Part shown: positions 2,063-8,086 of the stretch, in pieces | Layout: every line of letters begins with the position of its first letter | How positions within the stretch are numbered: the stretch's first letter is position 1 | Assembly (NCBI RefSeq): GCF_002251755.1 | Contig: NZ_NOXT01000125.1 | Coordinates: forward strand, 1-64,000 | DNA: 64,000 bases | Source: Sandarakinorhabdus cyanobacteriorum | Lineage (GTDB): Bacteria > Pseudomonadota > Alphaproteobacteria > Sphingomonadales > Sphingomonadaceae | Reading direction: 5' to 3' | Notes under the pieces: generated by a model | Told to the model about the DNA's origin: nothing | Seen by the model: the letters and a program-made list of their open reading frames with translations, nothing else | Database searches by the model: none | Program-made: the position numbers and the translations under genes

Positions 2063-2107
2063 GGTTTCGCGCTCCTGATGGCCTGTTGTGCCCTTGAAGC
2101 GCGGGCT

Positions 2108-2136
2108 TTGCCAAGCCCGGGCTTTTGGGTTATGGC
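2108..2136 (+). promoter_or_regulatory. Candidate promoter for the alaC leader
   Basis: TTGCCA (2108-2113), a 17-nt spacer and TATGGC (2131-2136) form a weak -35/-10 pair pointing toward alaC. The predicted start near 2143 would lie just upstream of the GGAG at 2162-2165 that precedes the leader peptide start. The -10 is poor, so this is a suggestion only. Confidence 0.3.
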
Positions 2137-2171
2137 CGCGATGCCGGCGATGGGCCGGCGTGGAGAGACGC

Positions 2172-2267
2172 GTGCGCCAGCAGGCGACCATTGCAGCCAT
2201 CATGGCCGGCGCAGCAGCAGCTGCCGCCGCGATTGCCGCTGCCGCCGGCGCGCCGCCACCGACCTGA
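2172..2267 (+). CDS. Putative alanine-rich leader peptide upstream of alaC
   Basis: This 31-codon open frame starts at GTG 2172, preceded by GGAG at 2162-2165 with 6-nt spacing. An internal ATG at 2202 would give 21 residues. After a short lead it contains a run of seven Ala codons (2211-2231), Ile, four more Ala codons (2235-2246), Gly-Ala, Pro-Pro-Pro-Thr and TGA. In all, 16 of 31 residues are Ala, using all four Ala codons. It is followed by an intrinsic terminator and then by alaC, the alanine-forming aminotransferase. That arrangement is typical of amino-acid attenuator leaders. The peptide is inferred and not recognised from a known family; Ala-rich chance ORFs are common in GC-rich DNA. 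Confidence 0.45.
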   Translation: MRQQATIAAIMAGAAAAAAAIAAAAGAPPPT

Positions 2268-2339
2268 GGGATAGAGCAAGAATCAAACCCTCTCACCGGC
2301 GGCGGCGAAACAAAGATGTTTCTCCGCCGCTTTTCTTTT
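2251..2339 (+). promoter_or_regulatory. Candidate transcription attenuator of the alaC operon
   Basis: Two mutually exclusive structures can form. The antiterminator pairs 2251-2261 with 2297-2307: seven contiguous G-C pairs, then three or four more after one mismatch. The terminator uses the same 2299-2307 bases as its left arm. A ribosome stalled on the Ala codons would leave 2251-2261 free for antitermination. A ribosome at the stop codon (2265-2267) would mask it and allow the terminator. This is inference from base pairing and gene context. Confidence 0.4.
2299..2339 (+). terminator. Intrinsic terminator ahead of alaC
   Basis: A stem of 2299-2311 with 2318-2330 (12 of 13 positions paired, one C/T mismatch) and a 6-nt loop is followed directly by TTTTCTTTT. 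It points in the plus direction and ends about 50 bp before the alaC start codon. No plus-strand gene other than the leader ORF ends here. The 325-bp gap 2063-2387 otherwise holds only low-complexity GCC/GCG sequence. Confidence 0.75.
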
Positions 2340-2387
2340 GCCCGATCACTGCCTAAGGCAGCATCAACCAACCCAACGGAACTGGCC

Positions 2388-3599
2388 ATGCAGGACGAAT
2401 TTTACCGCATCAAACGCTTGCCGCCCTATGTGATTGCGGAAGTGAACGCCATGCGGGCCGCCGCACGGGCGCGCGGGGAGGACATTATCGACCTGGGCAT
2501 GGGCAATCCCGATCTGCCGCCGCCGCCGCACGTGATCGCCAAGCTGGCCGAGGTGGCCGCCAAGCCGGATGCGCATGGTTACAGCGCGTCGAAGGGGATT
2601 CCGGGGCTGCGGCGGGCGCAGGCGGCCTATTATGACCGGCGGTTCGGGGTTGATCTTGATCCCGATACGGAAGTGGTGGTGACGCTGGGTTCCAAGGAAG
2701 GCCTGGCCAATCTGGCGCAGGCGATCACCGCGCCGGGCGATGTGGTGCTGGTGCCCAACCCGTCTTATCCCATTCACACCTTTGGCTTCATCATTGCCGG
2801 CGCGACCATCCGCAGCGTGCCGACGACGCCTGACGAGCGTTATTTCGAAGCGCTGGAGCGGGCGGTGCGCTTTACAGTGCCGCGCCCCAGCGTGCTGGTG
2901 ATGGGATATCCGAGCAACCCGACCGCCGAGGTGGCCGATCTCGCCTTTTACGAGCGGGTGGTGGCGTTTGCGAAGAAGCACAATATCTGGGTGTTGTCGG
3001 ACCTCGCTTATTCCGAGATTTATTTTGATGGGCAGCCCACCCCGTCGATCCTGCAGGTGCCGGGGGCGAAGGATGTGGCGATCGAGTTCACCTCGCTGTC
3101 AAAATCCTATTCGATGGCGGGCTGGCGCATCGGCTTTGCGGTGGGCAACAAGACGCTGATTTCGGCGCTGACGCGGGTGAAATCCTATCTGGATTATGGC
3201 GCCTTCACGCCGATCCAGGCGGCGGCGGTGGCGGCGCTGAATGGCCCACAGGATATCGTGGCGCAGAACCGCGCGCTCTATCACCGGCGGCGCGATGTGC
3301 TGGTGGAAAGCTTTGGCCGCGCCGGGTGGGAGATTCCGGCACCGCGCGCCAGCATGTTTGCCTGGGCGCCGCTGCCGCCGGCGCTGGCGCATCTGGGGAG
3401 CCTCGAATTTTCCAAGCAGCTGCTCACCGAAGCCGGCGTGGCGGTGGCGCCGGGCGTTGGCTATGGCGAGGATGGCGAGGGCTTTGTGCGCATCGCGCTG
3501 GTGGAAAATGAGCAGCGGCTGCGCCAGGCGGCGCGCAACATCAGGAAATATCTGCAATCGATGGGCGTGAACACGCCATCGGTGAAGGCGGGGGGCTGA
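2388..3599 (+). CDS. alaC: Alanine/glutamate-pyruvate aminotransferase (AlaC-like)
   Basis: This cytosolic class I/II PLP aminotransferase probably interconverts glutamate plus pyruvate with 2-oxoglutarate plus alanine. It is 403 residues and aligns by eye along its whole length with E. coli AlaC: IKRLPPYV at the start, GMGNPD, PNPSYPIH, FPSNPTA-like YPSNPTA, and SLSKSYSMAGWRIGF with the PLP lysine at Lys239. Annotators often label this group LL-diaminopimelate aminotransferase, so substrate specificity is not certain. The ATG at 2388 is chosen over the upstream in-frame ATG at 2316, which lies inside the terminator. Three bases separate it from hom, so alaC and hom are almost surely cotranscribed. 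Confidence 0.88.
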   Translation: MQDEFYRIKRLPPYVIAEVNAMRAAARARGEDIIDLGMGNPDLPPPPHVIAKLAEVAAKPDAHGYSASKGIPGLRRAQAAYYDRRFGVDLDPDTEVVVTLGSKEGLANLAQAITAPGDVVLVPNPSYPIHTFGFIIAGATIRSVPTTPDERYFEALERAVRFTVPRPSVLVMGYPSNPTAEVADLAFYERVVAFAKKHNIWVLSDLAYSEIYFDGQPTPSILQVPGAKDVAIEFTSLSKSYSMAGWRIGFAVGNKTLISALTRVKSYLDYGAFTPIQAAAVAALNGPQDIVAQNRALYHRRRDVLVESFGRAGWEIPAPRASMFAWAPLPPALAHLGSLEFSKQLLTEAGVAVAPGVGYGEDGEGFVRIALVENEQRLRQAARNIRKYLQSMGVNTPSVKAGG

Positions 3600-3602
3600 G
3601 CC

Positions 3603-4895
3603 ATGGCAAGCGCACTTCACATCGGGATCGCCGGGTTGGGCAATGTGGGCGCCGGCGTGGTGAAGATATTGGCGCAGAACGCCGATCTGGTGGCGCGGCG
3701 GGCGGGGCGGCCGATCGTGGTGACGGCGGTGAGCGCGCGGGATCGCAACCGGGATCGCGGCATCAGCCTGGACGGCATCGCCTGGGTGGATGATGCCGCC
3801 GAACTCGCCACCCGCGATGATGTGGATGTGGTGGTGGAATTGATCGGCGGCAGCGATGGCCCGGCGTTGACGCTGGCCCGCCGGACGCTGGGCGCGGCCA
3901 AGCCGCTGGTGACGGCCAACAAGGCGATGCTGGCGCATCATGGCCTGGAACTGGCGCAGATGGCGGAGGCGGCCGACCTGCCGCTGAAGTATGAAGCGGC
4001 GGTGGCCGGCGGCATTCCGGTGATCAAGGGGATTTCGGAAGGCAGCGCCGCCAACCGGATCACCCGCGTTTATGGCCTGATGAACGGCACCTGCAATTAT
4101 ATCCTGTCACGCATGGAAGCCGAAGGCCTGGGCTTTGCCGAGGTGCTCGCCGATGCGCAGGCTTTGGGCTTTGCCGAGGCGGACCCGAGTTTCGACATTG
4201 ATGGCATCGACACGGCGCACAAATTGTCGATCCTGGCGGCGCTGGCCTTTGGCGCGGCGCTGGATTTTGCCGGCGTGGCCTGCACCGGCATCCGCGCCAT
4301 CGAAAGCGCCGATATCGCCCAGGCCGCCGCGCTGGGTTTCCGCATCAAGCTCGTGGGCCTGGCGGAAGCCGAGGATGGCAGATTGTTCCAGCGCGTGCAC
4401 CCGGCGCTGGTGCCGATGGCGCATCCGGTGGCAACCACGATGGGCAGTCTGAACGCCTTGGTGGTGGAAGGCGATTTCGTCGGCCGGCTGTTCTTCCAGG
4501 GGCGCGGTGCCGGCGAAGGGCCGACGGCGAGCGCGGTGGTGGCCGATCTGGTCGATATCGCGCGCGGTGATGTGCGGCCGCCCTTCGTGATGCCGGTGGC
4601 CGATCTGGCCGCCCTGCCCCGCGCCGATGCGGCCGGCCGGCGCGGGCGTTATTATCTGCGCCTGAACGTGGCCGATCGCGCCGGCGTGCTGGCGGAGCTG
4701 ACGGCGGCGCTGCGCGACTGCGGGGTTTCCATCGAAAGCCTGGTGCAGCGCGGCACGTCGAGCAGCGGCGATGCCATGGTGGTGATGGTCACCCACGAGG
4801 CCCGCGAAGCCGATGTGGTGGACAGTCTGGCCCGCATGGCCGCATCCCCATCGGTGGTGGGGCAGCCGGTGATGATGCACATACTGGATTTTTGA
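3603..4895 (+). CDS. hom: Homoserine dehydrogenase
   Basis: The enzyme reduces aspartate semialdehyde to homoserine with NAD(P)H, the branch point to threonine and methionine. At 430 residues it is a monofunctional homoserine dehydrogenase. It has an N-terminal Rossmann motif GLGNVGAGV, the conserved catalytic region with TANKAMLAHHG and a GLMNGTCNYIL segment, and a C-terminal ACT domain from about residue 350 (RAGVLAELTAAL) that normally senses threonine. It follows alaC by 3 bp. Confidence 0.95.
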   Translation: MASALHIGIAGLGNVGAGVVKILAQNADLVARRAGRPIVVTAVSARDRNRDRGISLDGIAWVDDAAELATRDDVDVVVELIGGSDGPALTLARRTLGAAKPLVTANKAMLAHHGLELAQMAEAADLPLKYEAAVAGGIPVIKGISEGSAANRITRVYGLMNGTCNYILSRMEAEGLGFAEVLADAQALGFAEADPSFDIDGIDTAHKLSILAALAFGAALDFAGVACTGIRAIESADIAQAAALGFRIKLVGLAEAEDGRLFQRVHPALVPMAHPVATTMGSLNALVVEGDFVGRLFFQGRGAGEGPTASAVVADLVDIARGDVRPPFVMPVADLAALPRADAAGRRGRYYLRLNVADRAGVLAELTAALRDCGVSIESLVQRGTSSSGDAMVVMVTHEAREADVVDSLARMAASPSVVGQPVMMHILDF

Positions 4896-8010: not shown

Positions 8011-8086
8011 GGTCCCTTCGTCTAGCGGTCTAGGACGTCGCCCTTTCACGGCGAAAACACGGGTTCGAGTCCCGTAGGGATCACCA
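8011..8086 (+). tRNA. tRNA-Glu (anticodon TTC)
   Basis: A complete 76-nt cloverleaf can be drawn. The acceptor stem GGTCCCT pairs with AGGGATC (one G-T wobble). The anticodon stem TCGCC/GGCGA closes the loop CTTTCAC, giving anticodon TTC. The T arm contains GGTTCGAGTCC, and a genomically encoded CCA ends it at 8084-8086. It decodes GAA/GAG. Confidence 0.97.

Follow-up and report, generated by a model that had tools for sequence, protein, structure and literature searches.

Transcription attenuation is a textbook mechanism whose described cases cover few amino acids, and ribosome-mediated attenuators are known for the trp, his, leu, thr, ilv and phe operons. T-box leaders of Firmicutes bind tRNA directly and have no leader peptide. 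One earlier paper names attenuators for histidine, threonine and phenylalanine beside the classical trp and leuS ones (PMC1262725). For the cysS leader of Rhodobacterales, which carries the uORFC-8-2 motif, the authors liken the regulatory codons to ribosome-mediated attenuation (PMC8632094).

No description of an alanine leader-peptide attenuator was found in the open-access literature, a body of text which leaves most subscription journals outside and is not proof of absence. The best reading of the present locus is a ribosome-mediated attenuator, a known class, with alanine as the sensed amino acid. The locus described here was analyzed within a stretch of 64,000 nucleotides of Sandarakinorhabdus cyanobacteriorum DNA, termed the window, with a GC content of 66%. 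It contains a leader which is best explained, and in our judgement quite probably, as a classical ribosome-mediated transcription attenuator sensing alanyl-tRNA.

Gene organization of the locus

The divergent genes for phaC and an aminotransferase are separated by a gap of 325 nt, which contains a leader ORF and an intrinsic terminator. The start of phaC (class I PHA synthase, minus strand, divergent from the leader) was read at 2062. The presumed regulated gene on the plus strand (2388..3599; NCBIfam PRK09148) encodes a class I/II aminotransferase and was called alaC in the original prediction. The homoserine dehydrogenase gene hom (3603..4895, plus strand; NCBIfam PRK06349, 509.5 bits) lies 3 nt downstream and is probably co-transcribed with the aminotransferase gene; glpX comes next. 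At gathering score, the only Rfam family in the window was a tRNA (8011-8083), and none was matched at the leader. A short ORF on the minus strand (11-316), ending beside the phaC gene end, resembles a piece of an ATP-binding protein (GPNNEGKSN) and may be a fragment.

The aminotransferase gene was identified in 23 of 24 Sandarakinorhabdus genomes, and a unit of ORF and terminator precedes it in 11 of these 23 loci. A covariance model made from the 11 leaders found all of them again together with a twelfth (L148, genome G017), bringing the count to 12 of the 24 genomes; the 12 leaders scored 86-111 bits, against 32.8 bits for the next best match. The L148 contig ends within its aminotransferase gene, which keeps 188 codons and gave no match at the gene-search cut-off. 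All 12 leaders precede the aminotransferase gene, and a quick gene tree places the 11 whose gene is complete on the same side of a branch that has a support of 100. Absence of the Ala-rich ORF and terminator from close relatives, which the original prediction had named as counting against the idea, did not occur, both being conserved upstream of the gene in 12 genomes. The conservation it had looked for among Sphingomonadales was found in one Sandarakinorhabdus clade and not in Sphingomonadales at large.

A candidate promoter on the plus strand (2107..2135) consists of TTTGCC (2107-2112) and TTATGG (2130-2135) with 17 nt between them, and overlaps the element GGGCTTTGCCAAGCCC (2103-2118). This element is an inverted repeat; its possible roles are those of a promoter element and of an operator shared with the divergent phaC. 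Inspection by eye revealed CTTTGCCAA in 11 of the 12 leaders (L015 differs), while GCTTTGCCAA is present in 10. Scanning with a consensus of the E. coli type gave no promoter at the leader.

Leader ORF

The ORF claimed originally, preceded by a Shine-Dalgarno sequence and with 16 Ala in 31 codons, was found as described. It occupies positions 2172..2267 of the plus strand, with a GTG start at 2172 and a TGA stop at 2265-2267, and is translated as (M)RQQATIAAIMAGAAAAAAAIAAAAGAPPPT, a product of 31 aa ending APPPT-stop. The Shine-Dalgarno sequence GGAGAG (2162..2167, plus strand) lies 4 nt before the start codon, and a run of GGAG, AAGG or GGGA stands ahead of the leader start codon in all 12 leaders by eye. 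Across the clade the ORF encodes 25-33 aa with 12-17 Ala, about half of the residues being Ala in every member.

The AII-like start region and the Pro-Pro end of the ORF share one frame despite intervening indels. Codon columns were variable at positions 1, 2 and 3 in 19, 19 and 27 of 30 cases, respectively, and a pN/pS of 0.56 was obtained with ten sequences, L016 being excluded as a near copy of L013. Judged from this alignment, the leader ORF is a sequence that behaves like a coding one, selected for Ala.

Attenuator leaders tend towards codons whose tRNAs lose charge first. Of the 181 Ala codons in the 12 leaders, 77 (43%) are GCA or GCT, compared with 16 of 251 (6%) in four neighbouring genes, and the enrichment is apparent in the window leader alone (Fisher p = 0.0007). 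It may partly serve a hairpin inside the Ala run (2207..2229, plus strand; CGGCGCAGC ... GCTGC.CGCCG), a possible region 1, in which 94.9% of cells are paired. Two pairs of this hairpin are changed on both sides, with a covariation score reached in 1 of 500 shuffles, and an A-U to U-A exchange in it is synonymous on both sides.

The original prediction carried the caveat that GC-rich DNA easily yields poly-Ala ORFs and GCC/GGC pairing by chance. The GC content of the window and the ordinary level of sequestration probability taken alone (see below) favour that explanation. The two strands of the window, however, hold 595 stop-delimited ORFs of 24-60 codons, of which only two have at least 40% Ala and only the leader ORF is above 50%; this count, the conservation in 12 genomes and the paired substitutions speak against chance, an explanation which the conservation already contradicts and which is hardly credible.

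Terminator and putative antiterminator

An intrinsic terminator lies between the leader ORF and the first gene in all 12 leaders. In the window (2299..2339, plus strand) its stem is formed by 2299-2311, the left arm or region 3, and 2318-2330, the right arm or region 4. The terminator proposed originally is borne out in its details, with 12 of 13 positions paired, 31 nt from the stop codon of the leader ORF to 2299, and a T-tract TTTTCTTTT at 2331-2339. One pair is compensated: of 10 distinct rows, six have G-C and four have A-U. The T-tract is followed by the start codon of the aminotransferase gene after 48 nt in the window and after 27-48 nt across the clade; the 27 nt in L013, L014 and L016 leave little room for a separate promoter. 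A transcription start downstream of 2340, the other point that the original prediction had named as counting against the idea, is made unlikely by these short distances. A small hairpin, (C/U)UGCC-UAA-GGCA(G/A), lies between terminator and aminotransferase start (2349-2361) and is found, with a C-G/U-A exchange, in 8 of the 12 leaders, L010, L013, L014 and L016 having none.

The alternative pairing suggested at the outset, of 2251-2261 with 2297-2307, is complete but for A2258/C2300; positions 2251..2261 of the plus strand (region 2) are the 5' arm of the antiterminator's outer stem. Most of the covariation of the leader sits elsewhere, in a hairpin absent from the original prediction which joins GAGGG (2266-2270) to CCCTC (2288-2292) and constitutes the inner part of the antiterminator (2266..2292, plus strand). 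RNAalifold with 11 leaders gave the terminator and a hairpin with the stop codon in its 5' arm; with the longer alignment A2, which differs there, the stop-codon hairpin was not drawn. In this helix 84.3% of cells are paired and 13 cells are changed on both sides, a number matched in 0 of 500 shuffles, and the covariation score was 0.498 vs 0.254 when shuffled and 0.11-0.26 (maximum 0.263) when slid. Four pairs show a change on both sides, which is not above the shuffles (154 of 500 as high). A U-A to A-U flip in the stem separates L013 from L014, its close neighbour in the tree. In L012 and L148 the usual TGA is missing and the ORF runs on to a later stop, yet both retain a stem (by eye in a shifted register in L012); the stem is therefore more than a side effect of the stop codon.

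The outer antiterminator behaves differently. Four of its 11 pairs are invariant, one varies on one side and six vary only by breaking; 80% of cells are paired and no pair covaries. Such absence of covariation is expected if region 3 has two partners, or if only coding holds these positions. The original prediction had proposed to align relatives and to see whether the Ala run, the stop position and both stems covary. In close relatives, conservation extends to the Ala run, to the surroundings of the stop and to the stems, with compensatory changes in the stop-codon stem and in one terminator pair; the 2251-2261/2297-2307 pairing is largely conserved and does not covary. Since the inner covarying stem fits both states, it is alone no proof of a switch.

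The loop of the stop-codon hairpin reads CGCAACA in 8 of the 12 members. This would suit a trans-acting small RNA, released by termination and stabilised by the hairpin, and the trp leader peptide of Sinorhizobium meliloti is reported to act in trans (PMC7298713). Such an RNA, with a target that is only hypothetical, would leave the Ala codons unexplained, and we consider it very unlikely. A kissing interaction of the CGCAACA loop with GTTGC downstream was also considered and was dropped, being inconsistent across members by eye.

Calculated switch and proposed mechanism

In each of the 12 leaders, a single extended hairpin was calculated to span region 2 to region 3, with -23.7 to -34.1 kcal/mol, the terminators having -22.2 to -24.6 kcal/mol. 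The antiterminator was calculated to be more stable than the terminator in 12 of 12 leaders by whole-segment folding, and in 11 of 12 by an energy ratio for which 45 nt upstream were taken at every site, leaders and 105 control sites being treated alike. The controls are terminator-like sites, not proven terminators, taken by scan from both strands of the window (2), other loci (100) and the genus loci L017-L028 (3), all the loci lying outside the clade. Their ratios had a median of 0.65 and a 95th percentile of 1.01, compared with 0.97-1.29 for the leaders, which fall within the top 1-8% of controls. The lowest value belongs to L012 (0.97), where the antiterminator is not the stronger.

In models of the nascent RNA, the terminator left arm was sequestered with a probability of approximately 0.8-1.0 when the ribosome stood in the Ala run, until the last few Ala codons, and of 0.25-0.55 when it stood at the stop. 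Plain sequestration of the left arm is ordinary (0.59-0.73 in the leaders vs a median of 0.72 in the 105 controls) and was rejected as proof of a switch, the other sites being alike; the energy ratio does discriminate.

At equilibrium, with the RNA finished, the terminator was favoured in all 12 leaders with the ribosome at the stop codon (0.87) and led in all 12 with a stall on the last Ala. A stall four codons before the last Ala placed the antiterminator side ahead in 9 of 12 leaders and the terminator in three. With a stall eight codons before, the terminator was favoured in nine and the antiterminator side in three, probably because the freed Ala codons compete for pairing. L009, L011 and L012 favoured the terminator at every stall position tried. 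These folding models are simple ones, in which the ribosome always covers about 12 nt beyond the A-site codon.

The mechanism proposed is as follows. Transcription would begin ahead of the leader ORF, whose Ala-rich peptide would be translated by a ribosome. When charged tRNA-Ala is plentiful, the ribosome would run on to the stop and mask both region 2 and the 5' side of the stop-codon hairpin. With its left arm thus left free, the terminator would form and the aminotransferase-hom operon would not be read. When charged tRNA-Ala is scarce, the ribosome would stall in the Ala run and the stop-codon hairpin would form, zip outward through the pairing of 2251-2261 with 2297-2307 and take the left arm of the terminator, so that the polymerase passes. 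The alanine-responsive attenuator of the original prediction gains support from the conserved ORF, terminator and stems and their compensatory changes, as far as alignments speak, and from a predicted switch. The ORF, its Ala content, the terminator and the stop-codon hairpin are borne out by comparison of relatives; the mutual exclusion of antiterminator and terminator is a calculated one; stalling on Ala codons, the start site and the effect on the operon are presumed.

An attenuator of this layout might respond to another signal, for example to isoleucine, through early Ile codons and with hom in the operon, or to slow translation of Pro-Pro. Each leader has 1-5 Ile codons, mostly near the start, and Pro-Pro is found near the stop in 12 of 12. 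Against these stands Ala, with about half of all leader codons; moreover, a ribosome at the Pro codons would cover region 2, and in models of the nascent RNA most of the left arm is then unsequestered. We regard a signal other than alanine as rather unlikely.

Distribution and possible origin of the leader

L017, the locus that adjoins the clade in the tree, has a short gap before the gene, with no ORF and no terminator. In 8 of the 23 genus loci the position of the leader is taken by a gene whose Ala-rich product begins like a signal peptide (six found by search; L020 and L022 by eye). A terminator was flagged after six of these eight genes; none was flagged in L020, L021 and L022. The product of L024:1131-1388 and its homologs (L135-L140, L144) make up a family of small proteins rich in Ala, which start in the manner of a signal peptide and share a conserved Cys/EARAMTG region; their genes are located between phaC and the aminotransferase gene in part of the genus. 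A comparison of the L024 protein with NCBIfam gave no match.

These genes bear upon the possibility that the leader ORF is itself a small independent gene for an Ala-rich membrane or secreted peptide, perhaps the shrunken remnant of a secreted protein, with a terminator that ends it and an aminotransferase gene that has its own promoter. Both the Ala-rich genes at the same position and the terminators behind them agree with this, as does the hydrophobic Ala/Ile core of the leader peptide. It is harder to reconcile with the 27 nt that three genomes offer for a promoter, with the enrichment of rare Ala codons, and with a covarying stop-codon hairpin which takes the left arm of the terminator, a structure unexpected at a gene end and of a strength rare among the 105 controls. 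We hold an independent gene to be unlikely, and prefer the alanyl-tRNA attenuator.

Short ORFs preceded by a Shine-Dalgarno sequence and followed by strong terminators were also identified at the same place, before the aminotransferase gene, in L025 (1311-1403) and L028. Their sequences are unrelated, with 15 Ala in 30 and 22 Ala in 37 codons, respectively, and in L025 the end of the ORF with its stop codon folds onto the left arm of the terminator. They are possible independent leaders; L021 is a weaker case, with no terminator flagged. The 105 control sites include two terminators that precede the aminotransferase gene in L066 and L068, which are copies of L025 and L028, and their energy ratios lie outside the ten highest of the controls; the energy-ratio test thus lends no support to these look-alike leaders.

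Outside the genus, the unit of ORF and terminator was not found in about 200 upstream regions. A scan of 106 loci, including at least nine copies of genus genomes and further duplicates, flagged eight, of which seven are genus copies and one (L041) has a terminator-like site without an Ala-rich ORF. Sandarakinorhabdus limnophila DSM 17366 (L056) has the leader. In the upstream regions of 109 of 125 gene matches other than the window (L264 shortened by a contig end), nine had a terminator-like site alone and one had an 18-codon ORF with 39% Ala alone. With its thresholds of 6 T in 8 and -12 kcal/mol, the terminator scan misses some sites. The covariance model was applied to 24 genus and 149 family genomes, also with a view to other genes behind such a leader; of the 14 weak matches inspected besides L148, most lie at gene ends, and by eye none has a short ORF with at least 40% Ala.

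The simplest history begins with an ancestor within the genus that carried a gene plus terminator; one clade, and perhaps two further lineages independently, then shortened this gene to a leader. It stays a suggestion because several deep forks of the aminotransferase tree are weakly supported. Tentatively, and with the balance of likelihood against so full a statement, this would be the first alanine-specific ribosome-mediated attenuator, of recent date within the genus, where an Ala-rich secreted-protein gene, placed with its terminator ahead of the aminotransferase gene, was reduced to a leader peptide and the ordinary gene end became an amino-acid sensor, L025 and L028 having Ala-rich versions of their own.

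Identity of the aminotransferase

The aminotransferase (2388-3599) matched NCBIfam PRK09148, 'LL-diaminopimelate aminotransferase', with 754.6 bits, passing the cut-off of 648, and PRK08175, alanine transaminase, with 592 bits, which is below the cut-off of 647. The genome encodes DapD of the succinylase route to lysine, above its cut-off, so that a diaminopimelate role of the aminotransferase is not needed; because of this, 'LL-diaminopimelate aminotransferase' may be a misnomer in this lineage. Alanine is the presumed product, and the Ala-rich leader is independent, circumstantial evidence for a role in alanine. If true, an alanine attenuator would provide independent evidence that an enzyme labelled LL-diaminopimelate aminotransferase serves alanine metabolism in these bacteria.

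Comparison with described systems

With T-box leaders the leader shares, as proposed, the sensing of tRNA aminoacylation; T-box leaders differ in binding tRNA directly without a leader peptide, and the Rfam search of the window gave only the tRNA named above. The cysS leader with the uORFC-8-2 motif resembles it in being an alphaproteobacterial, lineage-restricted upstream ORF with regulatory codons, and differs in having two cysteine codons and a tRNA synthetase gene (PMC8632094).

The trp, his, leu, thr, ilv and phe attenuators are also close to it. They differ from the present leader in that here alanine is the repeated amino acid, the operon is a different one and the distribution covers one clade of one genus; unlike the classical cases, there is also no clear region 1:2 protector hairpin which hides region 2 in all members. 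If true, the alanine attenuator would add a specificity and a recent case of attenuator birth, with relatives without it or with other arrangements in place. What the leader has in common with these attenuators is an ORF preceded by a Shine-Dalgarno sequence and rich in one amino acid, a terminator before the first gene, a predicted overlapping antiterminator and a gene of amino acid metabolism downstream.
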